Source of the DNA: Deroplatys truncata
Taxonomy: Eukaryota > Arthropoda > Insecta > Mantodea > Mantidae
Reading direction: 5' to 3'
Length of the DNA stretch: 64,000 bases
Assembly: GCA_030765065.1 (NCBI GenBank)
Contig: CM060984.1
Location: 106,993,488-107,057,487, forward strand
Shown here: piece by piece, positions 4,286 through 48,582 of the stretch
Layout of the letters: each line of letters starts with the position of its first letter
Numbering within the stretch: position 1 is the stretch's first letter
The notes under the pieces: generated by a model
The model's input: only the letters and a program-made list of their open reading frames with translations
Database searches by the model: none
What the model was told of the DNA's origin: nothing
Position numbers and translations under genes: made by a program

Positions 4286-4375
4286 GGCAACTTTCTGAAG
4301 CCTAGCCGGGAATCGAACCCGGAACACCTCATATAGCAGGCAGTTTCTCTACCGAATGAGCTCTGGGACCAGTGA
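4195..4375 (-). repeat. tRNA-derived SINE
   Basis: On the minus strand there is an excellent A box (agctcattcggtagag) and a perfect B box with paired T stem (ccgggttcgattcccgg). The acceptor ends do not pair and the anticodon stem is poor, so this is a tRNA-derived SINE head, not a tRNA gene. The remaining ~90 bases would be the SINE body, whose end is unclear. Confidence 0.6.
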
Positions 4376-4499
4376 TAGCAGTTAAAGTGTTCGTTTACAA
4401 GCATTGGTCTTTCATTTAGCACTCTCCTCTCCGTCGGTATGGAGTCCCCTTTGCATTCCTGCTTAGGCAAACCTTTTGGCATCTGCGCTATCGGTATAA

Positions 4500-4860
4500 A
4501 CTAATTTCATCTAAGGACGGCTTGTGTGTGCCACCTGGTATATACATCAACGTCGTTGTTTCCTCTTTCTTGCACAAACTAGTCATCGCTAAAGTCGAGT
4601 CACTCATCATCATTATCGTGTAATCTTACGCAAAGCCGTAAACGCAATGGATGGCTGACAAATGTCTGCTGGCCAGCTGGTAGTTTGCAGTGGTTTCCTG
4701 CGTCTCCCATCGATCGCTAGAAGTTCGTTGTGAAAATAATTTCACGAATCGTTCAAGAGCTAACTGATCGGCACGCGCACCTTTAAAAGCCCTTGCCCAA
4801 GTTAACTAACTTAACTTTTAATATCATATATTGCAGTTGTTTACTCTACAAAAAAATATA
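4500..4860. other. Unassigned spacer
   Basis: Nothing recognisable is present between the SINE and the next Rep-A copy. Confidence 0.4.
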
Positions 4861-6640: not shown

Positions 6641-7470
6641 AAATCTGATGTGTTACACTCACATAACTTTCTCCACTCTTATACAAAACATTTTTACAAA
6701 CGCTTATTCTCCATATGCTTCATGCTAATCGAGATATCGAGATGTCAATCTTATTGCTAATTTTCTTGTAGATGCAAGGGGAATACGGTAGGTTATAAAC
6801 GAAAGTCAAATCCTTTAAGAGCCGGTCTTTGCATGTCCAGGACATAAAAAAATGAATAACGAATTTGAGAAAAAGTATAAGTATTGGAAAATTTAAGGGA
6901 GCAACAAGCAATATCTCGAAAATGGTTCACTCAACAAAAAAAGTGTATATGACCTAAATTGTGTATTTTAACGAGATCTACATTTGTTCTGTAGTAAACT
7001 TTTGTCTATCTCTTATGGTTTAGCAGTTATGCAAAAGTCGTTCACAATGAAGAATACTTTTGGAAACATTCCCAGAAAATTCGAGATATACATTTCATTT
7101 GTCATAAATATATCTTAAACATATGATATTTTAATAAAAATTGTTACACCCATTTATGATAAAATTAAAATTTTCGAAAAATGTTCCATGTAAAGGGTAA
7201 TCTGGGGTGGGGGGAGTTTCTTGAAAACCTTCGTGTCGCATCTCTGGAAGATACTGAACCTAAATACCAAGTTTGGCGTTTATCCGACTGTTCGTTTCTG
7301 AGTTATGCTGTTCACATACACACAGACACACACACGGACATGTTCCTAAAAATGCTTTATTGGGATTCAGGGGGTCTCAAAACATGTATTTCCGGTGAAA
7401 TCTTGGTATCGAATTTTTGGTTTGAATACAATACTTCCTCTACTTACTATACGTAGTAGAGAAAGTAAAA
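6641..7470 (+). repeat. Rep-A copy
   Basis: It starts aaaaatctgatgtgttacac and ends cgtagtagagaaagtaaaa. A 91-codon open frame (7181-7456) runs through the conserved 3' half and recurs in other copies, but I see no motif in it and do not call it a gene. Confidence 0.75.
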
Positions 7471-7810
7471 AACTGTATACTTATACGGATCTTTCCATGT
7501 ATACAGAATATGTTAACTAGCAAAACTTGAAATCACGGAATATCTTCAGGAAGTACCTGTTTCCACCTTTAAGATATTTATCCACAGAATACAAACCTTT
7601 AATGTCAATTTCTCCTTAAACATTGCACAGTATGGAACTTAATTTACTGCATACTTGTAAAGTGCACTCTCAGGTTTTCTCTGAACTTCAATAGGGGTAT
7701 CTCCATAGTAACGACTTATTATTTGTCACTGTGTTTAAATATTAATCTTTTAAAACTATAAAATACGTATGTTATGTGCTCGATACATAGAAATATTATG
7801 CAACAACATC

Positions 7811-10316: not shown

Positions 10317-10422
10317 CTTGTTATTACAAATAAACCTTCATTATCCATGTCATTGTACTTATAAGAAGAATACAGTAGGCTACAGCGATAGCCAAATCTT
10401 TTCAAAGCCGGTCACTATGTGA
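10317..10422 (+). repeat. Flank duplication A, left copy (Rep-A piece)
   Basis: This 106-bp stretch (cttgttattac to cactatgtga) recurs in direct orientation at 28,551-28,656 with about two substitutions. It is part of a diverged Rep-A copy whose remainder continues after the right copy (to ~29,140). The two copies therefore look like a 106-bp target duplication made when the palindromic element and its extra flank arrived. Confidence 0.8.
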
Positions 10423-10425
10423 ATG

Positions 10426-10431
10426 CACGAT
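10426..10431. repeat. 6-bp target duplication, left copy (CACGAT)
   Basis: CACGAT touches the left tip of the palindrome. The identical hexamer touches the right tip at 28,379-28,384. A paralogous stretch at 29,932 has a single CACGAT followed by the same flank. Confidence 0.8.
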
Positions 10432-10440
10432 AGTAGTATT

Positions 10441-10591
10441 AGTCCCGGATGAGCCAATTGATTTAACGATAATCCTGCCGCTAGGGGCGCTGGTGTCGCT
10501 AGTGTCGGTGCGTGCGACGGCGGCGGCGGTGTGTTTGAAAAGCGCCCTGAGCGGTAGGATTATCGTTAAATCGGTTGGCTCATCCGGGACG
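10441..10591. repeat. Subterminal 150-bp hairpin, left tip
   Basis: gtcccggatgagccaa...ctaggggcgct pairs with agcgccctgag...ttggctcatccgggac across a GC-rich loop with a cggcggcgg run; each stem is ~48 bp with a few mismatches. It could be a MITE trapped at the arm tip or the true terminal structure. The palindrome extends nine bases beyond it. Confidence 0.8.
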
Positions 10592-10599
10592 AGTTGAAA

Positions 10600-13200
10600 G
10601 AATTGAGGAAGTGACGTGGAGTGTTTTTGATTGGTTCGTTAATTTGGGGTGGGAGATGGAGGAAGGGAGATGGAGGAGTATGGAGGTCGCGTGATGGAGA
10701 GGAGCTGGGTGGCGAGGTGTTGTCTGTGCGGAGGTCGGTACTGAAAGAGGGGTAAAGATGGGGAGCGAGGGATAAAAAGTGTAACAGAAAGTGACGTGTG
10801 AAGTTGTGATTGGTGGGAATAAGAAGTGATTTTATTGGTGGAAAGGAGCAAATGAAGGTTGTTGATTGGTAAGAATAAGAGGGATTATGATTGGTGGAAA
10901 AGAAAAAGTTGTGGGAGTGGGGTATGTTGGAGGTGATGGGAAAGGTGAGTTTTGCTAGCAGCAAGATTTGCAAAAGCCTGTCTTGAACTGATCAGCAATT
11001 TTTGAACGTCGGATGGTAGTTTTCTTGAGTGGATAGAGAGATGGGGGCGATATGAGATGCGGTGGCGAAAATGGGAACTAGATAAGGTTGTTGAGACAAG
11101 AGGTTTAAGGACGAGGAAATTTGGAGGTTAGTGGTGAACACGGCGGTCGCAAGAGGTGGGGGTAAGGAGACGCAGTGGTGAGAATGGGAACTAAAAGAAG
11201 ATGGGGGTAGCAAGAGTTTTAGAAGAGTAGATTTTGAGGTTAAAATAGTGGGAACTAAAAATGGCGGAGGGTCTGCGACAAGGAGATGCGGTGAGAACTA
11301 AACAAGATGGCGGTCGCAAGAGGAGGGTAAGGAGATTTGAGGTTACAGTACGAAAACACGAAAGGATATATTCCTACGCCAAGCAGGTGCGAAAAATAAT
11401 TATGCGTGTGGTACTTACCTGTTACCGGTGTGGATGCGTCACCAAAAGCGCGGCACGCGAGGCGGAAAAATAAAAGCAAACTGTTTTTGAAAATGCTTAA
11501 CCAGCTTTAAGATCAACCAACATCACTACGCACTGATATACCTAGGTTTTTAAAGCGGTACAGACACCCTTTGCAGAGGCGTAATTTAACTATACCAAAA
11601 ACCTGGTACTGGACCATCGTGATGGTCGCTAGCGTACGTAGGAGCAGGGTTCTCATAGCCGGTCGAAAGCGGTCAAAAACGTGTACGACGTAGGTGTTGA
11701 CAGTAGCTGCTGTCGAGTCAACGGTCGAGGTGTGAATAAACAAGATCTGTTCTCGCCGGCAATTTGGTTCGGAGATGTGAGCAGCGGCGAGGTGTTGTCT
11801 GTGCGGAGGTCGGGACTGAAAGAGGGAAAAGATGGGGAGCGAGGGATAAAAAGTGTAACAGAAAGTGACGTGTGAAGTTGTGATTGGTGGGAATAAGAAG
11901 TGATTTTATTGGTGGAAAGGAGCAAATGAAAGTTGTTGATTGGTAAGAATAAGAGAGGTTATGATTGGTGGAAAGAAAAAGGAGTGGGGTATGTTGGAGG
12001 TGATGGGAAAGGTAAGTTTTGCTAGCAACAAGATTTGCAAAAGCCTGTCGTGAACTGATCAGCAATTTTTTGAACGTTGGATGGTAGTTTTCTTGAGTGG
12101 ATAGAGAGATGGGGCGATATGAGATGCGGTGGCGAAAATGGGAACTAAACAAGGTGGTTGAGACAAGAGGTTTAAGGACGAGGAAATTTGGAGGTTAGTG
12201 GTGAACATGGCGGTCGCAAGAGGTGGGGGTAAGGAGACGCGGTGGTGAGAATGGGAACTAAAAGAAGATGGCGGTAGCAAGAGGTTAGAAGAGTAGATTT
12301 TGAGGTTAAAATAGCGGGAACTAAAAATGGCGGAGGGTCTGCGACAAGGAGATGCGGTGAGAACTAAACAAGATGGCGGACGCAAGAGGTGGGTAAGGAG
12401 GTTTGAGGTTACAGTACCAAAACACGAAAGGATATATTCCTACGCCAAGCAGGTCCGAAAAATAATTATGCGTGTGTTACTTACCTGTTACCGGTGTGGA
12501 TGCGTCACCAAAAGCGCGGCACGCGAGACGGAAAAATAAAAGCAAACTGTTTTTGAAAATGCTTAACCAGCTTTAAGATCAACCAACATCACTACGCACT
12601 GATATACCTAGGTTTTTAAAGCGGTACAGACACCCTTTGCAGAGGCGTAATTTAACTATACCAAAAACCTGGTACTGGACCATCGTGATGGTCGCTAGCG
12701 TACGTAGGAGCAGGGTTCTCATAGCCGGTCGAAAGCGGTCAAAAACGTGTACGACGTAGGTGTTGGCAGTAGCTGCTGCCGAGGCAACCGTCGAGGTGCG
12801 AATGAACCAGATCTGTTCTTGCAGGCAATCTGGTTGAGAGATGAGAGGCGCGGTGGTAAAAATGTGAACTAAATAAGATGGCGGAGGCACGAAGTTGAGG
12901 TTAAGGAGCGGCGAGGTGTTGACTGTGCGGCGGTTGGGGTCTGAAAGAGGGGGAAAGATGGCGAACGAGGGATAAAAAGTATAACAGAAAGTGACGTGTG
13001 AAGTTGTCATTGGTGGGAATAAGAAGTGATGTTATTGGTGGAAAGGAACAAATGAAAGTTGCTGATTGGCGAGAATAAGAGAGATTATGATTGGTGGAAA
13101 GAAAAAAAGGTGTGGGAGTGGGGTATGTTGGAGGTGATGGAAAAGGCAAGTTTTGCTACCAACAACATTTGCAAAAGCCTATCCAGAACTCATCAGCAAT
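10600..13200 (-). repeat. Three tandem ~1.1-kb promoter-like units, left arm
   Basis: Direct repeats spaced about 1,066-1,125 bp, read on the minus strand so that they point to the left tip. Each unit contains four CCAAT boxes, CACGTCACTT, CTTTTTATCCCTCG and a pyrimidine run ending in CAG. Next come a block with several GCCATCTT or GCCAT sites and, in the two inner units, CAG|GTAAGTA. Exon-like blocks bounded by these signals are 11,419-11,815 and 12,485-12,940. The outermost unit lacks the donor before the tip hairpin. The open frames here (such as 143 codons at 12579-13010) show no known domain. Confidence 0.7.
12579..13010 (-). CDS. Hypothetical 143-codon frame in tandem unit (left arm)
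   Basis: The frame starts inside the promoter-like block, overlapping CACGTCAC, and ends GISVRSDVG. The last ~60 residues (from TYVVHVFDRFRPAMR to the stop) recur identically in the neighbouring unit at 11,513-11,743, where the upstream frame is different. No domain, signal peptide or membrane segment stands out. The DNA is equally conserved outside the frame, so there is no proof of translation. I would treat it as a repeat-borne open frame unless transcripts are found. Confidence 0.2.
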   Translation of the reverse strand: MTTSHVTFCYTFYPSFAIFPPLSDPNRRTVNTSPLLNLNFVPPPSYLVHIFTTAPLISQPDCLQEQIWFIRTSTVASAAATANTYVVHVFDRFRPAMRTLLLRTLATITMVQYQVFGIVKLRLCKGCLYRFKNLGISVRSDVG

Positions 13201-13964
13201 TTTAAATAACTAGTGTTTCGGGGGTTTTCTCTGGCTGGTAGACGAATGCAAGCTGTTTCTACCATACTTATATTATTCGTCTTTTTCCTTTTTTTTTTTT
13301 AAAATGACTAGTTTTTTTTTTTTTTTTTTTTTTGGGGAGTTTTCTGCGGATGGTAAACAAATGCAAGCTCTTTCTGCTTTTTCATAGGTTTTCCCTGGTT
13401 GGTAGGCGTTTTCTGTACTGGTTGACGAAGGCGTTTCTAATTTTGGAGGTTTTCTCAGGTTTTTAGCGGTTGTCCCTGCCCGGTAGGCAAATGATGAAGT
13501 TTTACCTTGTCGGCGCACGGATACTAGGCACGTACTGGCGCGCACACACACACACACACACACACAGAGACAGACAGACACACAGACAGGCACACACACA
13601 CGGACATGTTTCCAAAAATGCTTTTTTTTTTTTTTTTTTTTTTTTTGATTCAGGAGGTCTCAAAACGTGTATTTCCGGTGAAATCTCGGTATCGAATTTT
13701 TGGGCGGAATGCAATACTTCCCCTACTTACTATACGTAGTAGAGAAAGTAAAAAAGTATTGAAAAATTTAAGGAAATAACAAGCAATATCTCAAAAGTGT
13801 ACTATCTTGTTTTCAAGGGTTTTCCAGATCGGTAAGCGTTAGAATACTCTTAGAGCTTTTTTCAGGTTTTTTAGCGGTTGTCCCTGGCCGGTAGGCAATT
13901 GATAAAGTTTTTCTATAACGTCGTCGTTTTGGCTTGTGGCGCACGGTTCCTAGGCACGTACTCG

Positions 13965-14003
<39 letters not shown>

Positions 14004-14030
14004 ATAGTAGCGTATAAAAAAAACTGATTT
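13201..14030. repeat. Mixed repeat block with CA and T tracts, left arm
   Basis: The block has SINE-body-like pieces (ggttttccctggttggtagg recurs, resembling the SINE at 53.1 kb), T-runs of ~24 bp near 13,313 and 13,621, and CA microsatellites near 13,546 and 13,972 with a CG-alternating start. A Rep-A 3' end lies at about 13,595-13,756. The mirror block in the right arm is 25,010-25,610, with different microsatellite lengths. Confidence 0.7.
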
Positions 14031-14032
14031 GT

Positions 14033-16868
14033 TACACTCACATGACTTTCTCTACTCTTGTACAATCTAATTGGTAGCTTTTAAGCGATAGTCAAATATT
14101 TTAACGCTGGTTGCTATGTGGCGAATTCCATTCTGTTTGCATGTTCAGGACATAAAAAAATGAATAAACGAATTTGAGAAAAAGTATAAGTATTGGAAAA
14201 TTTAAGGAAATAACAAGCAATATCTCGAAAACGGTTCACTCAACAAAAGAAACGTATATGACATAAGTTGTGTATTTTAACGCGATCTACATTTTTTGTG
14301 TAGTAAAATTTTGTCTATCTCTTATGGTTTACCAGTTATGCAAAAAAGTCGTTCACAATGAAGAATATTTTTGGAGACATTCCCAGAAAATTCGAGATAT
14401 ACATTTTATTTGACATGACAATATCTTAAACATATGATGTTTTAATCAAAATCGTTAGAGCCGTTTTTGAGAAAATTAAAATTTTCGAAAAATGTTCCAT
14501 GTAAAGGGTAGTCTGGGGTGGGGGGATTTTCTTGAAAACCTTCGTGTCGCATCTCTGGAAGATACTGAACCTAAATACCAAGTTTGGTGTTTATCCGACT
14601 GTTCGTTTTTGAGTTATGCTGTTCACAGACACACAGACACACAGACAGACACACACACGGACATGTTTCCAAAAATGCTTTTTTTTTTTGGATTCAGAGA
14701 TTCTCAAAACATGTATTTCCAGTGAAATCTCGGTAACGAATTTTTGGGTGGAATGCAATACTTCCCCTACTTACTATACGTAGTAGAGAAAGTAAAAATG
14801 AATAACGCATTTGAGAAAAAGTATAAGTATTGGAAAATTTAAGGAAATAACAAGCAATATCTCGAAAATGGTTCACTCAACTAAAAAAAAATGTATATGA
14901 CATAAATTGTGTATTTTAACGCGATCTACATTTTTTGTGTAGTAAAATTTTGGCTATCTCTTATGGTTTACCAGTTATGCATACTGAACCTAAATACCAA
15001 GTTTGGTGTTTATCCGACTGTTCGTTTTTGAGTTATGCTGTTCACAGACACACAGACGCACAGACAGACAGACACACAGACACACAGACACACAGACAGA
15101 CACACACACGGACATGTTTCCAAAAATGCTTTTTTTTTTCTGGATTCAGTGATTCTCAAAACATGTATTTCCAGTGAAATCTCGGTATCGAATTTTTGGG
15201 TGGAATGCAATACTTCCCCTACTTACTATACGTAGTAGAGAAAGTAAAAATGAATAACGCATTTGAGAAAAAGTATAAGTATTGGAAAATTTAAAGGAAA
15301 TAACAAGCAATATCTCGAAAAACGGTTCACTCAACAAAATAAATGTATATGGCATAAGTTGTGTATTTTAACGTGATCTACATTTTTTGTGTAGCAAACT
15401 TTTGTCTATCTCTTACGGTTTATCAGTTATGAAAAAGTCGTTCACAATGAAGAATTCTTTTGGAGACATTCCCAGAAAATTCGAGATATACATTTCATTT
15501 CTCTCGACATTATCTTAAATATATGATATTTTCATCAAAATCGTTAGAGCCATTTTTTAATACAAAGAGAACGGGATTTCACAAGTGAAACAGTACTGTG
15601 ATAACGATACCACTGAAACAAAAAAAAAAATCTGATGTGTAACACTCACATGACTTTCTCAACTCTTGTACAAAGTATTTTTACAAACGCTTATTCCCCA
15701 TCTAGTTCATGTTAATCGAGATAAACATTTGCAAAATCTATTTTATTGCTAATTTTCTTGTATAAAAAAAAAATCTGATGTGTAACACTCACATGACGTT
15801 TTCTACTCTTGTACAAAGTATTTTTACAAACGCTTATGCTCCATCTAGTTCATGTTAATCGAGATAAACATTTGCAAACTCTATTTTATTGCTAATTTTC
15901 TTGTAGATGTAGGGGAAAATATATTTACAAGGGGAATATAGAAAAACAGTAGCCTTTAAGCACATACATATCTCTTAATAGCTGGTTGCTATGTGCAACA
16001 CCATTCTTTTTGCCACAGATTAATACTGTTTGCATATCAAAGACAAAAAAAAATGAATAACGAAGTCCCATTTGAGAAAATAAATATTGGAAAATTAACA
16101 AACAATATCTCGAAAACGGTTCACTCAACAACAAAAATGTATATTACATAAGATGTGTATTTTAACGCGATCTACATTTTTTGAGTAGTAAAATTTTGTC
16201 TATCTCTTACGGTTTTTCAGTTATGAAAAAGACGTTCACAATGAAGAATACTTTTGGAGACATTCCCAGAAAATTCGAGATATACATTTCATTTCTCACG
16301 ACATTATATTAAACATACGATATTTTTCATCAAAATCGTTAGAGCCATTTTTTTTAATACAAAGAGAACGGGATTTCACAAGTGAAACAGTACTGTGATA
16401 ACGATACCAACAAAACTAATTATTATTCACCCACTGAAACACATAAAAAAAATCTGATGTGTAACACTCACATGACTTTTCTCATCTCTTGTACAAAGTA
16501 TTTTTACAAACGCTTATTCCCCATCTAGTTCATGTTAATCGAGATAAACATTTGCAAACTCTGTTTTATTGCTAATTTTGTTGTAGATGTAGGGAAAATA
16601 TATTTACAAGGGGAATATAGAAAAACAGTAGCCTTTAAGCACATACATATCTCTTAATAGCTGGTTGCTATGTGCAGTACCATTCTTTTTGCCACAGATT
16701 AATACTCTTTGCATATCAAAGACAAAAAAAAAAATGAATAACGAATTCCCATTTGAGAAAATAACTATTGGAAAATTTAAGTAAATAACAAGCAATATCT
16801 CGAAAACGGTTCACTCAACAATAAAGATGTATATGACATAAGTTGTGTATTTTAACGCGATCTACATA
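14033..16868 (+). repeat. Stack of Rep-A pieces, left arm
   Basis: Successive Rep-A pieces lie head to tail: 14,033-14,787 (near complete), 14,788-15,250, 15,251-15,558 (truncated), 15,618-15,765, 15,766-16,350 and 16,448-16,868 (truncated). Junctions fall in A-runs, where the 3' end agtaaaaa meets an internal aaaatgaataacg. A 60-bp non-Rep-A stretch (aagagaacgggatttcacaa onward) follows two of the truncated pieces, at 15,565 and 16,369, suggesting that this part spread by segmental duplication. Confidence 0.75.
15618..15905 (+). repeat. Arm-specific ~142-bp tandem duplication
   Basis: The Rep-A 5' piece beginning aaaatctgatgtgtaacac occurs twice in tandem here but once at the mirror position (~23,020-23,165). 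The right arm's single copy carries the variants of the second left copy (gacgttttctactc, cttatgctcc). This is the largest structural difference between the arms. Confidence 0.75.
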
Positions 16869-17327
16869 CTTTCGTACTCACCTATAAGATATAGAGGGTA
16901 GAGGTCGTACGAACGTAGCACTTTGAGAATCTATATTCAACAGTTGGTGTTACTCCTTAGAAAGGAAGTATCTGCTGATTTTTATTTAATTCTTTACATT
17001 TTACATAACACGTATGCACTGGCACAACACAAAAGCACTACACACGATACTCAGTTTTAATATTTGCACTAATAACATCAGGAATAACTGAAGTCTGCAA
17101 ACAGTCATTTCCCATGTGCAGCCTTACGTACAGAGAACGTGTGTGGCTGATCTATGTGTAAAAAGAGCCTGAGAGCGGATGTACGTCAGCGGTAAAATCT
17201 TTTAAATGCATTTTTATTGGCGATGGTAGAAATCGTGCAGTGGTGGATCGTGAAAATTCATATAAATGGATGTATCACCTCATAATAAGCCTCTATATAC
17301 CAAGAATATTGAGTTTTTAAAAAGTCA
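16869..17327 (-). other. Single-copy segment between Rep-A stack and 76-bp array (left)
   Basis: About 460 bp with no repeat elsewhere except its mirror at 21,603-22,061. On the minus strand it has a CCAAT (cgccaataaaaatgc), a polyadenylation-like AATAAA and, at its outer edge, tatag|gtgagtacg, a good donor consensus. It has no long open frame. It may be a promoter-to-first-exon-like block pointing outward. Confidence 0.4.
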
Positions 17328-18890
17328 GCAACTGTACCTGTGTTTCTATACGTGAACGTCAGATGGCAGCTTCGATACGTGTCCACGGAGACCTTAGTGC
17401 TAGGCAACTGTACCTCTGTTTCTATACGTGAACGGCAGATTGCAGCTTCGATACGTGTCCACAGAGACCTTAGTGCTAGGCAACTGTACCTCTGTTTCTA
17501 TACGTGAACGGCAGATTGCAGCTTCGATACGTGTCCACGGAGACCTTAGTGCTAGGCAACTGCACCTCTGTTTCTATACGTGAACGGCAGATTGCAGCTT
17601 CGATACGTGTCCACGGAGACCTTAGCGCTAGGCAACTGCACCTCTGTTTCTATACGTGAACGGCAGATTGCAGCTTCGATACGTGTCCACGGAGACCTTA
17701 GTGCTAGGCAACTGTACCTCTGTTTCTATACGTGAACGGCAGATTGCAGCTTCGATACGTGTCCACGGAGACCTTAGTGCTAGGCAACTGTACCTCTGTT
17801 TCTATACGTGAACGGCAGATTACAGCTTCGATACGTGTCCACGGAGACCTTAGTGCTAGGCAACTGCAACTCTGTTTCTATACGTGAACGGCAGATTGCA
17901 GCTTCGATACGTATCCACGGAGACCTTAGTGCTAGGCAACTGCACCTCTGTTTCTATACGTGAACGGCAGATTGCAGCTTCAATACGTGTCCACGGAGAC
18001 CTTAGTGCTAGGCAACTGTACCTCTGTTTCTATACGTGAACGGGAGATTGCAGCTTCGATACGTGTCCACGGAGACCTTAGTGCTAGGCAACTGCACCTC
18101 TGTTTCTATACGTGAACGTCAGATTGCAGCTTCGATACGTGTCCACGGAGACCTTAGTGCTAGGCAACTGCACCTCTGTTTCTATACGTGAACGGCAGAT
18201 TGCAGCTTCGATACGTATCCACGGGGACCTTAGTGCTAGGGAACTGCACCTCTGTTTCTATACGTGAACGGCAGATTGCAGCTTCAATACGTGTCCACGG
18301 AGACCTTAGTGCTAGGCAGCTGTACCTCTGTTTCTATACGTGAACGGCAGATTGCAGCTTCGATACGTGTCCACGGAGATCTTAGTGCTAGGCAGCTATA
18401 CCTGTTTCTATACGTCAACGGCAGATTGCAGCTTCGATACGTGTTCACGGAGACCTTAGTGCTAGGCAACTGTACCTGTGTTTCTATACGTGTCCACGGA
18501 GACCTTAGTGCTAGACAACTGTACCTCTGTTTCTATACGTGAACGGCAGATTGCAGCTTCAATACGTGTCCACGGAGACCTTAGTGCTAGTGCTAGGCAA
18601 CTATACCTCTGTTTCTATACGTGAACGGCAGATTGCAGGTTCGATACGTGTCCACGGAGATCTTAGTGCTAGGCAACTATACCTGTTTCTATACGTGAAC
18701 GGCAGATTGCAGCTTCGATACGTGTCCACGGAGACCTTAGTGCTAGGCAACTGTACCTGTGTTTCTATACGTGAACGTCAGATGGCAGCTTCGATACGTG
18801 TCCACGGAGACCTTAGTGTTAGGCAACTGTACCTCTGTTTCTATACGTGAACGGCAGATTGCAGCTTCGATACGTGTCCACGGAGACCTT
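17328..18890 (+). repeat. 76-bp tandem array, left arm
   Basis: About 20 copies of a 76-bp unit (tatacgtgaacggcagattg, then cagcttcgatacgtgtccac, then ggagaccttagtgctagg and a short tail). Each unit holds two related ACGTG cores. Variant units, including shortened ones near 18,395 and 18,480-18,545, occur in the same order in the right arm, so the array formed before the arms were duplicated. Open frames here (e.g. 18264-18542) are translations of the repeat, not genes. Confidence 0.95.
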
Positions 18891-19450
18891 TCGCTTCAGG
18901 TGACAAAATAACACTAGGCACTTGTGTGCCGTGGTGTAAGCCGCAATCACGGTATTGGTAGCGTGGATCTCCTTGGGGCTCTCCTCGGAGTTACCTCAAC
19001 ACCACGTACATGACCTGGTTCGTCACGGGTACGCAGGTCTGCACTACCACTTCCTCGGCGTTGAGCAGGCCCAGGAGGCGATCGTACCGGTACACCAGCT
19101 AGCACGTGGACATGTTATCGCGCTGTGGTGTTGCGTGTGCGAGGTATGGAAACTCAAGGACGCAAAACATGCACGACCGAGGGTTAAAAAGCAGAACAAG
19201 TAGTGACGTGGAGCGTTGTGATTGGTGTAAATAAGACGATCTCTGATAGGTGGACAAATTGAAATAACGTGATGTGATAGGCGAAAATAAAATCAAAGGT
19301 GATTGGATGAAAAATGACGAGAAGGAATTAGCGGTGAATTTGTGAACTAAGATGGCGACGATTTTTTTTTTTTAAAAAAAAGGATAATATAAGTACGGCA
19401 ACTGTAACGGTTTACGGCAAACGCGCGCCGCGCAATGCGTCACGCCGGGC
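18891..19450 (-). other. GC-rich central block, left copy
   Basis: Mirror of 19,480-20,039. It contains the GC-ended 35-codon frame (18,994-19,098, minus), two CCAAT boxes (near 19,221 and 19,302), CACGTCAC and CTTTTTAA. It is thus a diverged fourth copy of the promoter-like module. Next to the loop lies a GC-rich terminus (gcgcgccgcgcaatgcgtc). Confidence 0.6.
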
Positions 19451-19479
19451 ATCTTGCTCAATATGATTTTTGTTTTATT
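19451..19479. other. Loop of the palindrome
   Basis: About 29 AT-rich bases (atcttgctcaatatg...) are the only unpaired sequence between the arms. The first arm bases on either side are cacgccgggc and gcccgggcgtg, which differ by one base in length. Confidence 0.85.
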
Positions 19480-19614
19480 GCCCGGGCGTGACGCATTGCG
19501 CGGCGCGCGTTTGCCGTAAACCGTTACAGTTGCCGTACTTATATTATCCTTTTTTTTAAAAAAAAAAATCTTCGCCATCTTAGTTCACAAATTCACCGCT
19601 AATTCCTTCTCGTC

Positions 19615-19760
19615 ATTTTTCATCCAATCACCTTTGATTTTATTTTCGCCTATCACATCACGTTATTTCAATTTGTCCACCTATCAGAGATCGTCTTATT
19701 TACACCAATCACAACGCTCCACGTCACTACTTGTTCTGCTTTTTAACCCTCGGTCGTGCA
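19615..19760 (+). promoter_or_regulatory. Central promoter-like module (right copy)
   Basis: CCAAT boxes at 19,624 and 19,705, CACGTCAC at 19,720-19,727 and CTTTTTAA at 19,739-19,746 occur in the same order and spacing as in the outer tandem units. It points toward the GC-ended frame and outward toward the right tip. The order is seen directly; promoter activity is inferred. Confidence 0.4.
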
Positions 19761-19831
19761 TGTTTTGCGTCCTTGAGTTTCCATACCTCGCACACGCAAC
19801 ACCACAGCGCGATAACATGTCCACGTGCTAG

Positions 19832-19936
19832 CTGGTGTACCGGTACGATCGCCTCCTGGGCCTGCTCAACGCCGAGGAAGTGGTAGTGCAGACCTGCGTA
19901 CCCGTGACGAACCAGGTCATGTACGTGGTGTTGAGG
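19832..19936 (+). CDS. GC-ended 35-codon frame, exon-like (right copy)
   Basis: The frame reads LVYRYDRLLGLLNAEEVV and goes on to TNQVMYVVLR. Nearly every codon ends in G or C (CTG GTG TAC CGG TAC), unlike the surrounding AT-rich DNA. It is preceded in frame by TAG (as ...gtgctag|ctg) and ends ...ttgag|gtaact, so its edges coincide with an acceptor-like AG and a donor-like GT. This looks like one captured internal exon. The upstream frame on the same strand, MFCVLEFPYLAHATPQRDN (from 19,760), ends at that TAG. I do not recognise the protein. The left-arm copy is 18,994-19,098 (minus). Confidence 0.35.
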
Positions 19937-20039
19937 TAACTCCGAGGAGAGCCCCAAGGAGATCCACGCTACCAATACCGTGATTGCGGCTTACACCACG
20001 GCACACAAGTGCCTAGTGTTATTTTGTCACCTGAAGCGA

Positions 20040-21602
20040 AAGGTCTCCGTGGACACGTATCGAAGCTGCAATCTGCCGTTCACGTATAGAAACAGAGGTA
20101 CAGTTGCCTAACACTAAGGTCTCCGTGGACACGTATCGAAGCTGCCATCTGACGTTCACGTATAGAAACACAGGTACAGTTGCCTAGCACTAAGGTCTCC
20201 GTGGACACGTATCGAAGCTGCAATCTGCCGTTCACGTATAGAAACAGGTATAGTTGCCTAGCACTAAGATCTCCGTGGACACGTATCGAACCTGCAATCT
20301 GCCGTTCACGTATAGAAACAGAGGTATAGTTGCCTAGCACTAGCACTAAGGTCTCCGTGGACACGTATTGAAGCTGCAATCTGCCGTTCACGTATAGAAA
20401 CAGAGGTACAGTTGTCTAGCACTAAGGTCTCCGTGGACACGTATAGAAACACAGGTACAGTTGCCTAGCACTAAGGTCTCCGTGAACACGTATCGAAGCT
20501 GCAATCTGCCGTTGACGTATAGAAACAGGTATAGCTGCCTAGCACTAAGATCTCCGTGGACACGTATCGAAGCTGCAATCTGCCGTTCACGTATAGAAAC
20601 AGAGGTACAGCTGCCTAGCACTAAGGTCTCCGTGGACACGTATTGAAGCTGCAATCTGCCGTTCACGTATAGAAACAGAGGTGCAGTTCCCTAGCACTAA
20701 GGTCCCCGTGGATACGTATCGAAGCTGCAATCTGCCGTTCACGTATAGAAACAGAGGTGCAGTTGCCTAGCACTAAGGTCTCCGTGGACACGTATCGAAG
20801 CTGCAATCTGACGTTCACGTATAGAAACAGAGGTGCAGTTGCCTAGCACTAAGGTCTCCGTGGACACGTATCGAAGCTGCAATCTCCCGTTCACGTATAG
20901 AAACAGAGGTACAGTTGCCTAGCACTAAGGTCTCCGTGGACACGTATTGAAGCTGCAATCTGCCGTTCACGTATAGAAACAGAGGTGCAGTTGCCTAGCA
21001 CTAAGGTCTCCGTGGATACGTATCGAAGCTGCAATCTGCCGTTCACGTATAGAAACAGAGGTGCAGTTGCCTAGCACTAAGGTCTCCGTGGACACGTATC
21101 GAAGCTGCAATCTGCCGTTCACGTATAGAAACAGAGGTACAGTTGCCTAGCACTAAGGTCTCCGTGGACACGTATCGAAGCTGCAATCTGCCGTTCACGT
21201 ATAGAAACAGAGGTACAGTTGCCTAGCACTAAGGTCTCCGTGGACACGTATCGAAGCTGCAATCTGCCGTTCACGTATAGAAACAGAGGTGCAGTTGCCT
21301 AGCGCTAAGGTCTCCGTGGACACGTATCGAAGCTGCAATCTGCCGTTCACGTATAGAAACAGAGGTGCAGTTGCCTAGCACTAAGGTCTCCGTGGACACG
21401 TATCGAAGCTGCAATCTGCCGTTCACGTATAGAAACAGAGGTACAGTTGCCTAGCACTAAGGTCTCCGTGGACACGTATCGAAGCTGCAATCTGCCGTTC
21501 ACGTATAGAAACAGAGGTACAGTTGCCTAGCACTAAGGTCTCCGTGGACACGTATCGAAGCTGCCATCTGACGTTCACGTATAGAAACACAGGTACAGTT
21601 GC
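20040..21602 (-). repeat. 76-bp tandem array, right arm
   Basis: Mirror image of the left array with the same variant units in the same order. Confidence 0.95.
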
Positions 21603-22061
21603 TGACTTTTTAAAAACTCAATATTCTTGGTATATAGAGGCTTATTATGAGGTGATACATCCATTTATATGAATTTTCACGATCCACCACTGCACGATTT
21701 CTACCATCGCCAATAAAAATGCATTTAAAAGATTTTACCGCTGACGTACATCCGCTCTCAGGCTCTTTTTACACATAGATCAGCCACACACGTTCTCTGT
21801 ACGTAAGGCTGCACATGGGAAATGACTGTTTGCAGACTTCAGTTATTCCTGATGTTATTAGTGCAAATATTAAAACTGAGTATCGTGTGTAGTGCTTTTG
21901 TGTTGTGCCAGTGCATACGTGTTATGTAAAATGTAAAGAATTAAATAAAAATCAGCAGATACTTCCTTTCTAAGGAGTAACACCAACTGTTGAATATAGA
22001 TTCTCAAAGTGCTACGTTCGTACGACCTCTACCCTCTATATCTTATAGGTGAGTACGAAAG
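21603..22061 (+). other. Single-copy segment, right copy
   Basis: Mirror of 16,869-17,327. On the plus strand it carries CCAAT at ~21,709, AATAAA near 21,944 and a donor-like tatag|gtgagtacg with the exon edge at 22,048. It has no long open frame. Confidence 0.4.
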
Positions 22062-24793
22062 TATGTAGATCGCGTTAAAATACACAACTTATGTCATATA
22101 CATCTTTATTGTTGAGTGAACCGTTTTCGAGATATTGCTTGTTATTTACTTAAATTTTCCAATAGTTATTTTCTCAAATGGGAATTCGTTATTCATTTTT
22201 TTTTTGTCTTTGATATGCAAAGAGTATTAATCTGTGGCAAAAAGAATGGTACTGCACATAGCAACCAGCTATTAAGAGATATGTATGTGCTTAAAGGCTA
22301 CTGTTTTTCTATATTCCCCTTGTAAATATATTTTCCCTACATCTACAACAAAATTAGCAATAAAACAGAGTTTGCAAATGTTTATCTCGATTAACATGAA
22401 CTAGATGGGGAATAAGCGTTTGTAAAAATACTTTGTACAAGAGATGAGAAAAGTCATGTGAGTGTTACACATCAGATTTTTTTTATGTGTTTCAGTGGGT
22501 GAATAATAATTAGTTTTGTTGGTATCGTTATCACAGTACTGTTTCACTTGTGAAATCCCGTTCTCTTTGTATTAAAAAAAATGGCTCTAACGATTTTGAT
22601 GAAAAATATCGTATGTTTAATATAATGTCGTGAGAAATGAAATGTATATCTCGAATTTTCTGGGAATGTCTCCAAAAGTATTCTTCATTGTGAACGTCTT
22701 TTTCATAACTGAAAAACCGTAAGAGATAGACAAAATTTTACTACACAAAAAATGTAGATCGCGTTAAAATACACATCTTATGTAATATACATTTTTGTTG
22801 TTGAGTGAACCGTTTTCGAGATATTGTTTGTTAATTTTCCAATATTTATTTTCTCAAATGGGACTTCGTTATTCATTTTTTTTTTGTCTTTGATATGCAA
22901 ACAGTATTAATCTGTGGCAAAAAGAATGGTGTTGCACATAGCAACCAGCTATTAAGAGATATGTATGTGCTTAAAGGCTACTGTTTTTCTATATTCCCCT
23001 TGTAAATATATTTTCCCCTACATCTACAAGAAAATTAGCAATAAAATAGAGTTTGCAAATGTTTATCTCGATTAACATGAACTAGATGGAGCATAAGCGT
23101 TTGTAAAAATACTTTGTACAAGAGTAGAAAACGTCATGTGAGTGTTACACATCAGATTTTTTTTTTTGTTTCAGTGGTATCGTTATCACAGTACTGTTTC
23201 ACTTGTGAAATCCCGTTCTCTTTGTATTAAAAAATGGCTCTAACGATTTTGATGAAAATATCATATATTTAAGATAATGTCGAGAGAAATGAAATGTATA
23301 TCTCGAATTTTCTGGGAATGTCTCCAAAAGAATTCTTCATTGTGAACGACTTTTTCATAACTGATAAACCGTAAGAGATAGACAAAAGTTTGCTACACAA
23401 AAAATGTAGATCACGTTAAAATACACAACTTATGCCATATACATTTATTTTGTTGAGTGAACCGTTTTTCGAGATATTGCTTGTTATTTCCTTTAAATTT
23501 TCCAATACTTATACTTTTTCTCAAATGCGTTATTCATTTTTACTTTCTCTACTACGTATAGTAAGTAGGGGAAGTATTGCATTCCACCCAAAAATTCGAT
23601 ACCGAGATTTCACTGGAAATACATGTTTTGAGAATCACTGAATCCAGAAAAAAAAAAGCATTTTTGGAAACATGTCCGTGTGTGTGTCTGTCTGTGTGTC
23701 TGTGTGTCTGTGTGTCTGTCTGTCTGTGCGTCTGTGTGTCTGTGAACAGCATAACTCAAAAACGAACAGTCGGATAAACACCAAACTTGGTATTTAGGTT
23801 CAGTATGCATAACTGGTAAACCATAAGAGATAGCCAAAATTTTACTACACAAAAAATGTAGATCGCGTTAAAATACACAATTTATGTCATATACATTTTT
23901 TTTTTAGTTGAGTGAACCATTTTCGAGATATTGCTTGTTATTTCCTTAAATTTTCCAATACTTATACTTTTTCTCAAATGCGTTATTCATTTTTACTTTC
24001 TCTACTACGTATAGTAAGTAGGGGAAGTATTGCATTCCACCCAAAAATTCGTTACCGAGATTTCACTGGAAATACATGTTTTGAGAATCTCTGAATCCAA
24101 AAAAAAAAAAGCATTTTTGGAAACATGTCCGTGTGTGTGTCTGTCTGTGTGTCTGTGTGTCTGTGTGTCTGTGAACAGCATAACTCAAAAACGAACAGTC
24201 GGATAAACACCAAACTTGGTATTTAGGTTCAGTATCTTCCAGAGATGCGACACGAAGGTTTTCAAGAAAATCCCCCCACCCCAGACTACCCTTTACATGG
24301 AACATTTTTTGAAAATTTTAATTTTCTCAAAAACGGCTCTAACGATTTTGATTAAAACATCATATGTTTAAGATATTGTCATGTCAAATAAAATGTATAT
24401 CTCGAATTTTCTGGGAATGTCTCCAAAAATATTCTTCATTGTGAACGACTTTTTTGCATAACTGGTAAACCATAAGAGATAGACAAAATTTTACTACACA
24501 AAAAATGTAGATCGCGTTAAAATACACAACTTATGTCATATACGTTTCTTTTGTTGAGTGAACCGTTTTCGAGATATTGCTTGTTATTTCCTTAAATTTT
24601 CCAATACTTATACTTTTTCTCAAATTCGTTTATTCATTTTTTTTATGTCCTGAACATGCAAACAGAATGGAATTCGCCACATAGCAACCAGCGTTAAAAT
24701 ATTTGACTATCGCTTAAAAGCTACCAATTAGATTGTACAAGAGTAGAGAAAGTCATGTGAGTGTAACAAATCAGTTTTTTTATACGCTACTAT

Positions 24794-24842
<49 letters not shown>

Positions 24843-25009
24843 CGAGTACGTGCCTAGGAACCGTGCGCCACAAGCCAAAACGACGACGTTATAGAAAAAC
24901 TTTATCAATTGCCTACCGGCCAGGGACAACCGCTAAAAAACCTGAAAAAAGCTCTAAGAGTATTCTAACGCTTACCGATCTGGAAAACCCTTGAAAACAA
25001 GATAGTACA
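22062..25009 (-). repeat. Stack of Rep-A pieces, right arm
   Basis: Mirror of the left-arm stack, minus one ~142-bp duplicate. The (GT)n tract at 24,798-24,833 followed by alternating GC is longer than in the left arm. Confidence 0.75.
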
Positions 25010-25241
25010 CTTTTGAGATATTGCTTGTTATTTCCTTAAATTTTTCAATACTTTTTTACTTTCTCTACTACGTATAGTAAGTAGGGGAAGTATTGCATTC
25101 CGCCCAAAAATTCAATACCGAGATTTCACCGGAAATACACGTTTTGAGACCTCCTGAATCAAAAAAAAAAAAAAAAAAAAAAAAAAGCATTTTTGGAAAC
25201 ATGTCCGTGTGTGTGTGCCTGTCTGTGTGTCTGTTTGTCTC

Positions 25242-25272
<31 letters not shown>

Positions 25273-25610
25273 CAGTACGTGCCTAGTATCCGTGCGCCGA
25301 CAAGGTAAAACTTCATCATTTGCCTACCGGGCAGGGACAACCGCTAAAAACCTGAGAAAACCTCCAAAATTAGAAACGCCTTCGTCAACCAGTACAGAAA
25401 ACGCCTACCAACCAGGGAAAACCTATGAAAAAGCAGAAAGAGCTTGCATTTGTTTACCATCCGCAGAAAACTCCCAAAAAAAAAAAAAAAAAAAAAAACT
25501 AGTCATTTTAAAAAAAAAAAAGGAAAAAGACGAATAATATAAGTATGGTAGAAACAGCTTGCATTCGTCTACCAACCAGAGAAAACCCCCGAAACACTAG
25601 TTATTTAAAA
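25010..25610. repeat. Mixed repeat block, right arm
   Basis: Mirror of 13,201-13,800, with A-runs (~25,160-25,186; 25,475-25,498), (GT)n at ~25,244-25,267 and SINE-body-like pieces. Confidence 0.7.
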
Positions 25611-25715
25611 TTGCTGATGAGTTCTGGATAGGCTTTTGCAAATGTTGTTGGTAGCAAAACTTGCCTTTTCCATCACCTCCAACATACCCCACTCCCACAC
25701 CTTTTTTTCTTTCCA

Positions 25716-25869
25716 CCAATCATAATCTCTCTTATTCTCGCCAATCAGCAACTTTCATTTGTTCCTTTCCACCAATAACATCACTTCTTATTCCCACCAA
25801 TGACAACTTCACACGTCACTTTCTGTTATACTTTTTATCCCTCGTTCGCCATCTTTCCCCCTCTTTCAG
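25716..25869 (+). promoter_or_regulatory. CCAAT x4 / CACGTCAC / CTTTTTAT module (right arm, unit 1)
   Basis: Four CCAAT boxes are followed by CACGTCACTT, ACTTTTTATCCCTCG, GCCATCTT and a pyrimidine run ending in CAG. The order is the same as in units 2 and 3. CCAAT boxes are bound by NF-Y and TGACGTG-like sites by CREB/ATF-type bZIP factors in animals; use as a promoter here is inference. Confidence 0.4.
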
Positions 25870-26841
25870 ATCCCAACCGCCGCACAGTCAACACCTCGCC
25901 GCTCCTTAACCTCAACTTCGTGCCTCCGCCATCTTATTTAGTTCACATTTTTACCACCGCGCCTCTCATCTCTCAACCAGATTGCCTGCAAGAACAGATC
26001 TCGTTCATTCGCACCTCGACGGTTGCCTCGGCAGCAGCTACTGCCAACACCTACGTCGTACACGTTTTTGACCGCTTTCGACCGGCTATGAGAACCCTGC
26101 TCCTACGTACGCTAGCGACCATCACGATGGTCCAGTACCAGGTTTTTGGTATAGTTAAATTACGCCTCTGCAAAGGGTGTCTGTACCGCTTTAAAAACCT
26201 AGGTATATCAGTGCGTAGTGATGTTGGTTGATCTTAAAGCTGGTTAAGCATTTTCAAAAACAGTTTGCTTTTATTTTTCCGTCTCGCGTGCCGCGCTTTT
26301 GGTGACGCATCCACACCGGTAACAGGTAAGTAACACACGCATAATTATTTTTCGGACCTGCTTGGCGTAGGAATATATCCTTTCGTGTTTTGGTACTGTA
26401 ACCTCAAACCTCCTTACCCACCTCTTGCGTCCGCCATCTTGTTTAGTTCTCACCGCATCTCCTTGTCGCAGACCCTCCGCCATTTTTAGTTCCCGCTATT
26501 TTAACCTCAAAATCTACTCTTCTAACCTCTTGCTACCGCCATCTTCTTTTAGTTCCCATTCTCACCACCGCGTCTCCTTACCCCCACCTCTTGCGACCGC
26601 CATGTTCACCACTAACCTCCAAATTTCCTCGTCCTTAAACCTCTTGTCTCAACCACCTTGTTTAGTTCCCATTTTCGCCACCGCATCTCATATCGCCCCA
26701 TCTCTCTATCCACTCAAGAAAACTACCATCCAACGTTCAAAAAATTGCTGATCAGTTCACGACAGGCTTTTGCAAATCTTGTTGCTAGCAAAACTTACCT
26801 TTCCCATCACCTCCAACATACCCCACTCCTTTTTCTTTCCA

Positions 26842-26994
26842 CCAATCATAACCTCTCTTATTCTTACCAATCAACAACTTTCATTTGCTCCTTTCCACCA
26901 ATAAAATCACTTCTTATTCCCACCAATCACAACTTCACACGTCACTTTCTGTTACACTTTTTATCCCTCGCTCCCCATCTTTTCCCTCTTTCAG
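26842..26994 (+). promoter_or_regulatory. CCAAT x4 module (right arm, unit 2)
   Basis: Same order and the same 25/31/25 spacing as unit 1. It ends in cccctctttcag-type pyrimidine-CAG, which opens an exon-like block to 27,391. Confidence 0.4.
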
Positions 26995-27915
26995 TCCCGA
27001 CCTCCGCACAGACAACACCTCGCCGCTGCTCACATCTCCGAACCAAATTGCCGGCGAGAACAGATCTTGTTTATTCACACCTCGACCGTTGACTCGACAG
27101 CAGCTACTGTCAACACCTACGTCGTACACGTTTTTGACCGCTTTCGACCGGCTATGAGAACCCTGCTCCTACGTACGCTAGCGACCATCACGATGGTCCA
27201 GTACCAGGTTTTTGGTATAGTTAAATTACGCCTCTGCAAAGGGTGTCTGTACCGCTTTAAAAACCTAGGTATATCAGTGCGTAGTGATGTTGGTTGATCT
27301 TAAAGCTGGTTAAGCATTTTCAAAAACAGTTTGCTTTTATTTTTCCGCCTCGCGTGCCGCGCTTTTGGTGACGCATCCACACCGGTAACAGGTAAGTACC
27401 ACACGCATAATTATTTTTCGCACCTGCTTGGCGTAGGAATATATCCTTTCGTGTTTTCGTACTGTAACCTCAAATCTCCTTACCCTCCTCTTGCGACCGC
27501 CATCTTGTTTAGTTCTCACCGCATCTCCTTGTCGCAGACCCTCCGCCATTTTTAGTTCCCACTATTTTAACCTCAAAATCTACTCTTCTAAAACTCTTGC
27601 TACCCCCATCTTCTTTTAGTTCCCATTCTCACCACTGCGTCTCCTTACCCCCACCTCTTGCGACCGCCGTGTTCACCACTAACCTCCAAATTTCCTCGTC
27701 CTTAAACCTCTTGTCTCAACAACCTTGTCTAGTTCCCATTTTCGCCACCGCATCTCATATCGCCCCCATCTCTCTATCCACTCAAGAAAACTACCATCCG
27801 ACGTTCAAAAATTGCTGATCAGTTCAAGACAGGCTTTTGCAAATCTTGCTGCTAGCAAAACTCACCTTTCCCATCACCTCCAACATACCCCACTCCCACA
27901 ACTTTTTCTTTTCCA

Positions 27916-28069
27916 CCAATCATAATCCCTCTTATTCTTACCAATCAACAACCTTCATTTGCTCCTTTCCACCAATAAAATCACTTCTTATTCCCACCAA
28001 TCACAACTTCACACGTCACTTTCTGTTACACTTTTTATCCCTCGCTCCCCATCTTTACCCCTCTTTCAG
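27916..28069 (+). promoter_or_regulatory. CCAAT x4 module (right arm, unit 3)
   Basis: This is the outermost module, with CACGTCAC at 28,013-28,020 and CTTTTTAT at 28,031-28,038. No donor follows before the tip; an extra CCAAT-like box (aaccaatcaaaaac) lies near 28,175. Confidence 0.4.
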
Positions 28070-28218
28070 TACCGACCTCCGCACAGACAACACCTCGCCA
28101 CCCAGCTCCTCTCCATCACGCGACCTCCATACTCCTCCATCTCCCTTCCTCCATCTCCCACCCCAAATTAACGAACCAATCAAAAACACTCCACGTCACT
28201 TCCTCAATTCTTTCAACT

Positions 28219-28369
28219 CGTCCCGGATGAGCCAACCGATTTAACGATAATCCTACCGCTCAGGGCGCTTTTCAAACACACCGCCGCCGCCGTCGCACGC
28301 ACCGACACTAGCGACACCAGCGCCCCTAGCGGCAGGATTATCGTTAAATCAATTGGCTCATCCGGGACT
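28219..28369. repeat. Subterminal 150-bp hairpin, right tip
   Basis: Mirror of the left tip hairpin; stems run gtcccggatgagccaacc... and ...ggctcatccgggac. Confidence 0.8.
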
Positions 28370-28378
28370 AATACTACT

Positions 28379-28546
28379 CACGATGTTGTGAATGTTTACC
28401 TCTGCATAAACCGTGGTGTGACAACAAATCAATTCAAAACCATGATTATCTGTTAACATCCTCAAAATATCCCCTGTCTTTTTGTACTGGCATTTACCTG
28501 GCAGTACGGTTAGTGAGTTTATGCTTGGTATACGTGCATGACAGTA
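28379..28546. repeat. Flank segment B (copy of 29,932-30,099)
   Basis: 168 bp, starting with the right CACGAT, match 29,932-30,099 with about two substitutions and end exactly at gacagta. On the other side of the element only nine bases (atgcacgat) of the same locus are kept. B therefore travelled with the element. Confidence 0.85.
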
Positions 28547-28550
28547 TATA

Positions 28551-29140
28551 CTTGTTATTACAAATAAACTTTTATTATCCATGTCATTGTACTTATAAGA
28601 AGAATACAGTAGGCTACAGCGATAGCCAAATCTTTTCAAAGCCGGTCACTATGTGATGGCTTTGAAATTTTTTTCTCTTTGCAAGAACACGAAAAAGAAA
28701 GAGCGTAAAAGAGGAAGCGATTTGGAGTTGGGAGACGCATAAAGTACTTAAATATTCAGATTAATAACAGACAATAATTCGAAAATGATTAACTCCATAA
28801 AAATATTATTTTACATAAGTTGTGTGCTTTAACGTATCTATACTTTTCTGAGGTGAGATTTTTTCTTTGTGTTACCGTTTAGTAATTATAAAAAGGACTT
28901 GCAGCATATTCCCAGAACATTCAAGATATACATTTTTTCATGAAAATAACTTGATCGTATAGTATTTCAATCAATGGTTCTATTTTGAGTTGTGCTGTTC
29001 ACAGACGCACACACACGGACCGTTTTATAAAATGACATTTTGGGTACAGGTCCTCAAACCAGATATTTCTGGTGAAATCTTGACATCGAATTTTTGTGTG
29101 GATTACGATACTTCCTCTACTGCAAGTACTAGTAAGTAAA
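28551..29140 (+). repeat. Flank duplication A (right copy) and rest of split Rep-A
   Basis: 28,551-28,656 repeats 10,317-10,422. The Rep-A sequence then continues (cataagttgtgtgctttaac, tgctgttcacagacgcacac, ggtgaaatcttgacatcgaa) to its 3' end near 29,140. It is an old, diverged Rep-A copy that was the landing site of the palindrome. Confidence 0.7.
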
Positions 29141-29920: not shown

Positions 29921-29931
29921 TAAATAAGATG

Positions 29932-30099
29932 CACGATGTTGTGAATGTTTACCTCTGCATAAACCGTGGTGTGACAACAAATCAATTCAAAACCATGATT
30001 ATCTGTTAACATCCTCAAAATATCTCCTGCCTTTTTGTACTGGCATTTACCTGGCAGTACGGTTAGTGAGTTTATGCTTGGTATACGTGCATGACAGTA
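29932..30099. repeat. Segment B original, with single CACGAT (empty site)
   Basis: aagatgCACGATgttgtgaatg reads straight through with one CACGAT. It lies just right of the MITE at 29,298-29,920. It is the likely source of segment B at 28,379-28,546 and defines the uninterrupted target. Confidence 0.8.
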
Positions 30100-47655: not shown

Positions 47656-48582
47656 AAATCTGATGTGTTACACTCACATGACTTTCTCTACTCTTGTACA
47701 AACTATTATACAAATCTTATTCTCCATCTATTTCATATTAATCGAGATAAACATTTGCAGAAACGATCTTTTGACATGCCAAGAGAATTACATTTTACAC
47801 ATAGCGACCAGTTCAAAAATATTTGACAATAGCTTAAGGCGTTCCCCTTGTTTTGCATTTGCAAGAAATACAGTATCCTTTAAGCATATACATATATCTT
47901 AATAGCTGGTTGCTAGGTGCAGCACCGTTCTCTTTTCCACAGATTAATACTCTTTGTATATCCTAGACAAAAAATTAATAACGAGAGAAAATAAGTATTG
48001 AAAAATTTAAGGGAGTAACAAGCAATATCTCGAAAATGGTTCATTCAATAAAAAAATGTATATGATAAATTGTGTGTTTTATCGCGACCTACATTTTTTG
48101 TGTAGTAAAAGTTTGTCTATCTCTTATGGTTTACCAAGTATGCAAAAGTTGTTCACAATGAAGAATACTTTTGGAGAAATTCTCAGAAAATTCAAGATAT
48201 ACATTTTATTTGTCATGAAAATATCTTAAACATATGATACTTTATTCAAAAACGTTAGAGCCATTTTTGAGAAAATTAAAATTTTCTAGAAATGTTCCAT
48301 GTACAGGGTAATCTGGGGTGGGGGGATTTTCTTGAAAACCTTCGTGTCGCATCTCTGGAAGATACTGAACCTAAATATCAAGTTGGGTGTTTATCCGACT
48401 GTTCGTTTCTGAGTTATGCTGTTCATATACACACACACACACACACGGACATGTTTCCAAAAATGCTTTTTTTTTTATTCAGGGGATATCAAAACATATA
48501 TTTCCGGTGAAATCTCGGTATCGAATTTTTGGGTGGGATGCAATACTTCCCCTACTTACCATACGTAGAAGAGAAAGTAAAA
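47656..48582 (+). repeat. Rep-A copy, near full length
   Basis: Starts aaaaaatctgatgtgttaca and ends gtagaagagaaagtaaaaa; all landmarks are present. Confidence 0.75.

Follow-up and report, generated by a model that had tools for sequence, protein, structure and literature searches.

A palindrome of 17,947 bp lies at positions 10432-28378 of a 64,000-nucleotide stretch of the Deroplatys truncata genome (GenBank assembly GCA_030765065.1, contig CM060984.1, positions 106,993,488 to 107,057,487 of the forward strand), referred to below as the window. As far as sequence can show, this element is a non-autonomous palindromic derivative of Maverick/Polinton without recognisable intact genes. It was assigned in this way because its tips, target duplication, size and coding relatives match Maverick/Polinton. 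Mavericks are virus-like DNA elements thought to be replicated by a protein-primed DNA polymerase and inserted by a retrovirus-like integrase. The favoured reading, which was given a probability of roughly 0.78, is that gene-free palindromic derivatives were produced by template-switch copy-back, are replicated and inserted by Maverick enzymes acting in trans, and have their arms homogenised before insertion.

The palindrome and its genomic copies

The window was compared with itself by blastn, which gave two overlapping minus-strand alignments across the palindrome (99.3% and 99.5% identity). Together with direct reading of the centre, these bore out an earlier sequence-only reading, which had described a palindrome of ~17.9 kb with ~9 kb arms and a 29-base loop. 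That reading had also taken the arms to be identical base for base, and this was incorrect. The arms differed by 14 substitutions in 8590 aligned columns (0.16%) and by indels, several of them within arrays, and a 143-bp unit formed a tandem doublet in the left arm (15621-15905) and a single copy in the right arm. The 76-bp array, tandem units and embedded interspersed repeats that it had described in the arms were found by Tandem Repeats Finder and self-comparison. An inverted repeat of 9 kb is far longer than chance would give, and it was found again at other loci. The palindrome in the window is real, and is neither an artefact nor a one-off.

Copies were sought in the 4.29 Gb assembly that contains the window. 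The first 301 bases of the element gave 1061 candidates, of which 40 were scored, each 100% identical. A genome search with the tip, as the sequence-only reading had proposed, returned many copies: an exact 32-base tip had 377 occurrences, against 0 for the reversed control. Eight further elements were fetched by the criterion of tips facing each other. All eight were palindromes, of 16.4-19.4 kb. Perfect 6-bp target duplications, all different in sequence, were present in 9/9 elements (the window, with CACGAT at both tips, and the eight fetched), in agreement with the mobile element and 6-bp duplication proposed earlier. The final 10 bases of L033 lay outside the fetched stretch, and its duplication was read from loci L006/L007. 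Two markers taken from one arm occurred 1173 and 1166 times in the genome. For each marker, the first 100 places listed contained 47 convergent inverted pairs (94 sites) and 6 single sites; copies with one arm only had been named in the sequence-only reading as a sign of an assembly or one-off inverted duplication. The counts imply several hundred palindromic elements in the genome, provided that the unlisted places resemble those listed. Together the palindromes form a mobile-element family that is large and young.

Relationship to Mavericks

Vertebrate Mavericks most commonly end in (AGT)2//(ACT)2 and make 6-bp duplications (PMC8097293, in the part available). Within the window element, 11786-14003 matched the end region of L057, a tip-bearing Maverick piece, at 96.8% over 2.2 kb. 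The left-arm relic of the PolB gene was detected by tblastn against PolB frames of the same genome, with a best E of 2.7e-12 to L048 and 38 aa at 71% to L057. Apart from such relics no intact gene and no integrase was recognised in the element. Its longest stop-to-stop frame was 158 aa, and frames of at least 150 aa from a start codon were absent from the whole window. An Rfam scan of the window gave no match at gathering scores.

Coding relatives were found among elements with the same tips. One of the fetched palindromes, L039/L040, carried a long frame in both arms that matched Pfam DNA_pol_B_2 (E 7e-37). A 1-kb stretch of this gene had at least 40 exact copies in the genome (40 scored of 1553 candidates). 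The first 100 listed tips formed 41 convergent pairs, of which 11 enclosed one exact copy of the PolB stretch and measured 18.9-19.9 kb. Of the remaining pairs, one (L039/L040) enclosed two inverted copies and 29 enclosed none; these 29 may still hold diverged copies, only 40 PolB places having been scored. Over the portion of the tip list that the listed second-marker places overlapped, an inverted pair of that marker lay inside 6/9 tip pairs without an exact PolB copy versus 0/4 with one.

L058, a 6-kb stretch from one of the 11 PolB-bearing elements, contained an integrase frame (3526-4581, minus strand) with Pfam matches to rve (E 1.5e-14) and a chromodomain (1e-6), and matched retroviral integrases in the PDB (E 1.6e-11). 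Two other L058 frames had no PDB match, and PolB had no match among phage records. A 536-aa minus-strand frame opposite PolB in L057 belonged to no family and was set aside as a likely shadow frame. The sequence-only reading had proposed a search for longer relatives encoding a transposase between similar tips. Coding relatives do exist between the same tips, with Maverick-type PolB and, in one that was examined, an rve integrase.

Protein-primed PolB appears to be very abundant in the genome (11,882 candidates at a first look, of which 76 were scored), which may contain several Maverick lineages. Contig C16 of the assembly exceeds 706 Mb.

Turn-back junctions and proposed mechanism

Two palindromes could be followed along L057. 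L039/L040 tracked it to 8976 and then reversed from 8237 to the starting tip, so that about 740 bases at its centre are single-copy. L041/L042 tracked it to about 5990 and returned from about 5188. One of these junctions was blunt and the other had 1 bp of microhomology. Because the turn-back points differ, the junctions argue for two independent events with copy-back topology. On the basis of how protein-primed replication by strand displacement works, we infer that replication rather than another rearrangement made the palindromes.

In the proposed mechanism, a strand being synthesised on displaced Maverick DNA would switch template and copy back to its tip of origin, giving a palindrome with a Maverick origin at both ends. 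The product would be replicated in trans by the Maverick polymerase. Its single strand would fold as a full-length hairpin, within which each arm could serve to correct or re-copy the other, and the palindrome would then be inserted by the Maverick integrase. After insertion the arms would diverge, like the long terminal repeats (LTRs) of a retrovirus.

Arm concordance within elements

Both arms of seven window-type elements, the window included, were aligned; L039 and L041 were excluded, as their interiors are different. With the 76-bp array omitted (6227 columns), the two arms of an element were sisters in 7/7 cases in the resulting tree, with ultrafast bootstrap values of 96-100. The same alignment contained 103 biallelic columns, of which 74 were arm-concordant, 28 were confined to one arm and 1 was otherwise discordant. 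Arms within an element differed by 0.06-0.29%. Among listed marker pairs, the same allele was present in both arms in 46/47 pairs at one site and 47/47 at another, where about 23 discordant pairs would be expected at random.

Two variants present in both arms, one from the window and one from L031, were searched and found at 441 and 224 genome sites. Among the first 100 sites listed for each, 86 (window variant) and 94 (L031 variant) fell in convergent pairs. Both variants were therefore already shared by the two arms when the insertions examined took place, since they recur at so many sites and mostly in inverted pairs where listed. Because shared variants were concordant and the others were private to one arm, the arms were probably re-made or homogenised in the mobile stage, before insertion.

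Chromosomal gene conversion between the arms after insertion, rather than re-making during replication, could also keep them alike. Close inverted repeats do convert, and the very small arm differences in the seven elements would suit such a process. It is nevertheless unlikely, as the searched variants predate the insertions and as the 28 one-arm columns over the seven elements represent mutations that have stayed unconverted.

Other explanations and opposing evidence

The palindrome had been regarded in the sequence-only reading as a possible undescribed giant foldback class. Tips, duplication, size and coding relatives all point instead to Maverick/Polinton. An independent giant foldback class, mobilised by a cut-and-paste transposase of its own and with tips in common with Mavericks through capture, would have a similar anatomy of long arms made of tandem units, but we consider it very improbable in view of the Maverick end motif, the 6-bp duplications, the PolB relics inside and the palindrome with PolB in both arms. 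No P-type transposase was hit among the 15 frames sent to Pfam from two relative pieces (10 kb and 6 kb). Membership of Foldback/Galileo was rejected, as neither duplication length nor enzymes fit. Fold-back chimeras occur in long-read data, but an assembly or library artefact made of fold-back reads, or a one-off inverted duplication, has a negligible probability: perfect 6-bp duplications were read at nine loci whose flanks differ, the markers lie in inverted pairs at many places, and single arms carry private mutations.

Several observations weigh against the favoured reading. The copy-back topology rests on two junctions. The window type has no simple parent, its centre being made of diverged and rearranged Maverick fragments (a segment of the terminal module diverged to about 67% and a PolB relic, in rearranged order). 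Six of the 100 listed sites of each marker had no partner. With the array included, the left arm of L045 was closer to the arms of other elements than to its own partner. The concordant marker pairs fall into few lineages and are not independent events. Pairing of array-length changes between arms was tested and not supported: differences comprised 13 even versus 12 odd non-zero multiples of 76, and another 12 pairs differed by other amounts. Among the unassigned L058 frames no capsid or protease gene could be recognised (no significant Pfam or PHROGs family). Evidence for a putative DNA-packaging ATPase is weak: a P-loop frame that follows PolB (L057:9567-9998) gave only sub-threshold Pfam hits, with FtsK_SpoIIIE and Adeno_IVa2 among 18.

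Element length and packaging

Removal of the 11 tip pairs with one exact PolB copy (median 19.4 kb) from the 41 convergent pairs left 30, including L039/L040, with a median length of 17.9 kb. Six of these (L035, L037, L039, L041, L043 and L045) were retrieved, and their sequences showed them to be palindromes. Lengths of 15.0-19.1 kb were found in 27/30, the three exceptions being far shorter: C2:228111622-228116771 (5.2 kb), C3:34936574-34943639 (7.1 kb) and C5:142443162-142453588 (10.4 kb). These short pairs could be deletion derivatives. L039 and L041 turn back at points about 3 kb apart, yet they measured 16,591 and 16,585 bp; this is due to a terminal region in L041 that is about 2.4 kb longer per arm.

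Gene-free transposons usually shrink. A Maverick-like length despite gene loss, achieved partly through accumulated tandem units, is what packaging would demand; this hints at packaging and does not prove it. A constrained genome size has been inferred for intact Mavericks (PMC8097293, in the part available). It is possible, though doubtful, that the palindromes are satellite or defective-interfering Maverick genomes turned into a transposon lineage of their own, replicating as self-complementary hairpins, filled with tandem and host repeats to a length accepted by the capsid, and spreading in Maverick particles. Much of the length constancy can be put down to common descent within the 18.0-kb group, an alternative that is sufficient and weakens the satellite reading. 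If the satellite reading were true, length constancy would be the genomic footprint of Maverick virions.

To our knowledge, the replication mode of Mavericks is inferred from their polymerase. Mavericks encode capsid genes, yet their particles have not been observed, according to the available part of PMC8097293. A large gene-free palindrome family of genome length would make both the replication and the particle question testable. Replication errors could be read from the turn-back junctions and a hairpin or re-copying stage from the homogenisation of the arms, and a conserved length would signal packaging. It would also show a virus-like DNA element spawning integrated satellites in large numbers within one host genome.

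Features of the window element and insertion site

Feature coordinates are given in Table 1.

Table 1. Coordinates of features in and around the window palindrome
Feature	Position	Strand	Basis or remark
Target-site duplication CACGAT, left copy	10426..10431	+	Directly abuts left tip; sequence read
Left arm	10432..19450	+	9019 bp; blastn self-comparison and centre read directly
Terminal AGTAGT, (AGT)2 Maverick end motif	10432..10437	+	Right end is ACTACT; motif according to PMC8097293 (part available)
Maverick-type terminal region	10432..14003	+	Sequence comparison; includes 1.07-kb direct duplication
Interspersed and simple repeat block	13543..16867	+	Several repeats recur elsewhere in window
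Segment common to window arm, L057, L039 and L041	16868..17095	+	93.9%; upstream of PolB in L057 and L039
76-bp tandem array, left arm	17328..18890	+	Tandem Repeats Finder
PolB relic (protein-primed, 3' part of gene), left arm	18891..19125	-	tblastn; reads towards left tip
Diverged partial copy of Maverick terminal module	19108..19312	+	blastn, about 67%; adjoins centre
Loop at centre, 29 bases	19451..19479		Centre read directly
Right arm	19480..28378	-	8899 bp; blastn self-comparison and centre read directly
PolB relic (3' part), right arm	19805..20039	+	tblastn, best E 2.3e-12 with L048
76-bp tandem array, right arm	20040..21602	-	Tandem Repeats Finder
Target-site duplication CACGAT, right copy	28379..28384	+	Directly abuts right tip; sequence read

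The 1.07-kb direct duplication of the outer arm comprised 10711-11785 and 11786-12853, with a partial third copy at 12904-13203. An arm repeat at 14183-14799 was 93.5% identical to 42187-42790 elsewhere in the window. A 0.6-kb interspersed repeat family was represented both in the window and inside the arms (6828-7471, 14136-14798, 42187-42790, 47983-48583 and others).

The insertion site falls within a tandemly duplicated segment measuring roughly 280 bp (10317-10422 versus 28551-28656; 28379-28546 versus 29932-30099), and a stretch of 1275 bp splits the second copy of this local duplication about 10 bp away from the position that corresponds to the insertion point. The second copy of the flank, at about 29929-29941, reads ATGCACGATGTTG uninterrupted, and acts as an empty-site paralogue.

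Within the tip itself lies a smaller inverted repeat, about 41 bases long (10443-10483 and 10551-10592; 72% self-matches), through which each end of the element could fold into a hairpin of its own. Motifs were counted in 10432-13200 against single-base shuffles; this region contains the 1.07-kb duplication and its strand is strongly G-skewed. TGATTGG was enriched (9 observed; shuffle mean 0.45, maximum 3), as was AAGATGGCGG (4 observed; mean 0.00, maximum 1). TGACGT (4 observed) was within shuffles (mean 1.03, maximum 5). The three motifs resemble CCAAT-box, YY1 and CRE sites, respectively.

Comparison with known systems

The window element resembles Foldback/Galileo in having long inverted arms built of internal repeats. 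Galileo differs in its mostly 7-bp duplications, versus 6 bp in 9/9 palindromes, and in its P-superfamily transposase, versus PolB and rve integrase in the tip-bearing relatives (Galileo data from the available part of PMC4168063).

Likeness to Maverick/Polinton lies in the ends, AGTAGT/ACTACT, which equal the (AGT)2//(ACT)2 motif of PMC8097293 (part available); in the target duplication of 6 bp in all nine palindromes with both ends read; in the protein-primed PolB and, in one relative, the rve-chromodomain integrase carried by tip-sharing elements, the window element itself keeping only PolB relics; and in the size of the window element, within about 15-20 kb. Intact vertebrate Mavericks have a mean length of 16,862 bp and terminal inverted repeats of 46-1,447 bp (same source and part), whereas the inverted repeats of the window element are ~9 kb per arm and span nearly its full length. 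The window element also differs in having no recognisable intact gene. No description of palindromic or non-autonomous Mavericks was found in a non-exhaustive search of the open-licence literature.

As with retroviral LTRs, shared variants are concordant between arms and the remainder are private to one arm. Protein-primed replicons are known to yield hairpin derivatives, such as those of the yeast linear killer plasmid and defective adenovirus genomes, which are extrachromosomal. The mantis palindromes resemble copy-back or inverted-dimer defective genomes of this kind in that one genome end occurs twice, in opposite orientations, on either side of a short unique centre. They differ in that they are many integrated, lineage-forming copies.

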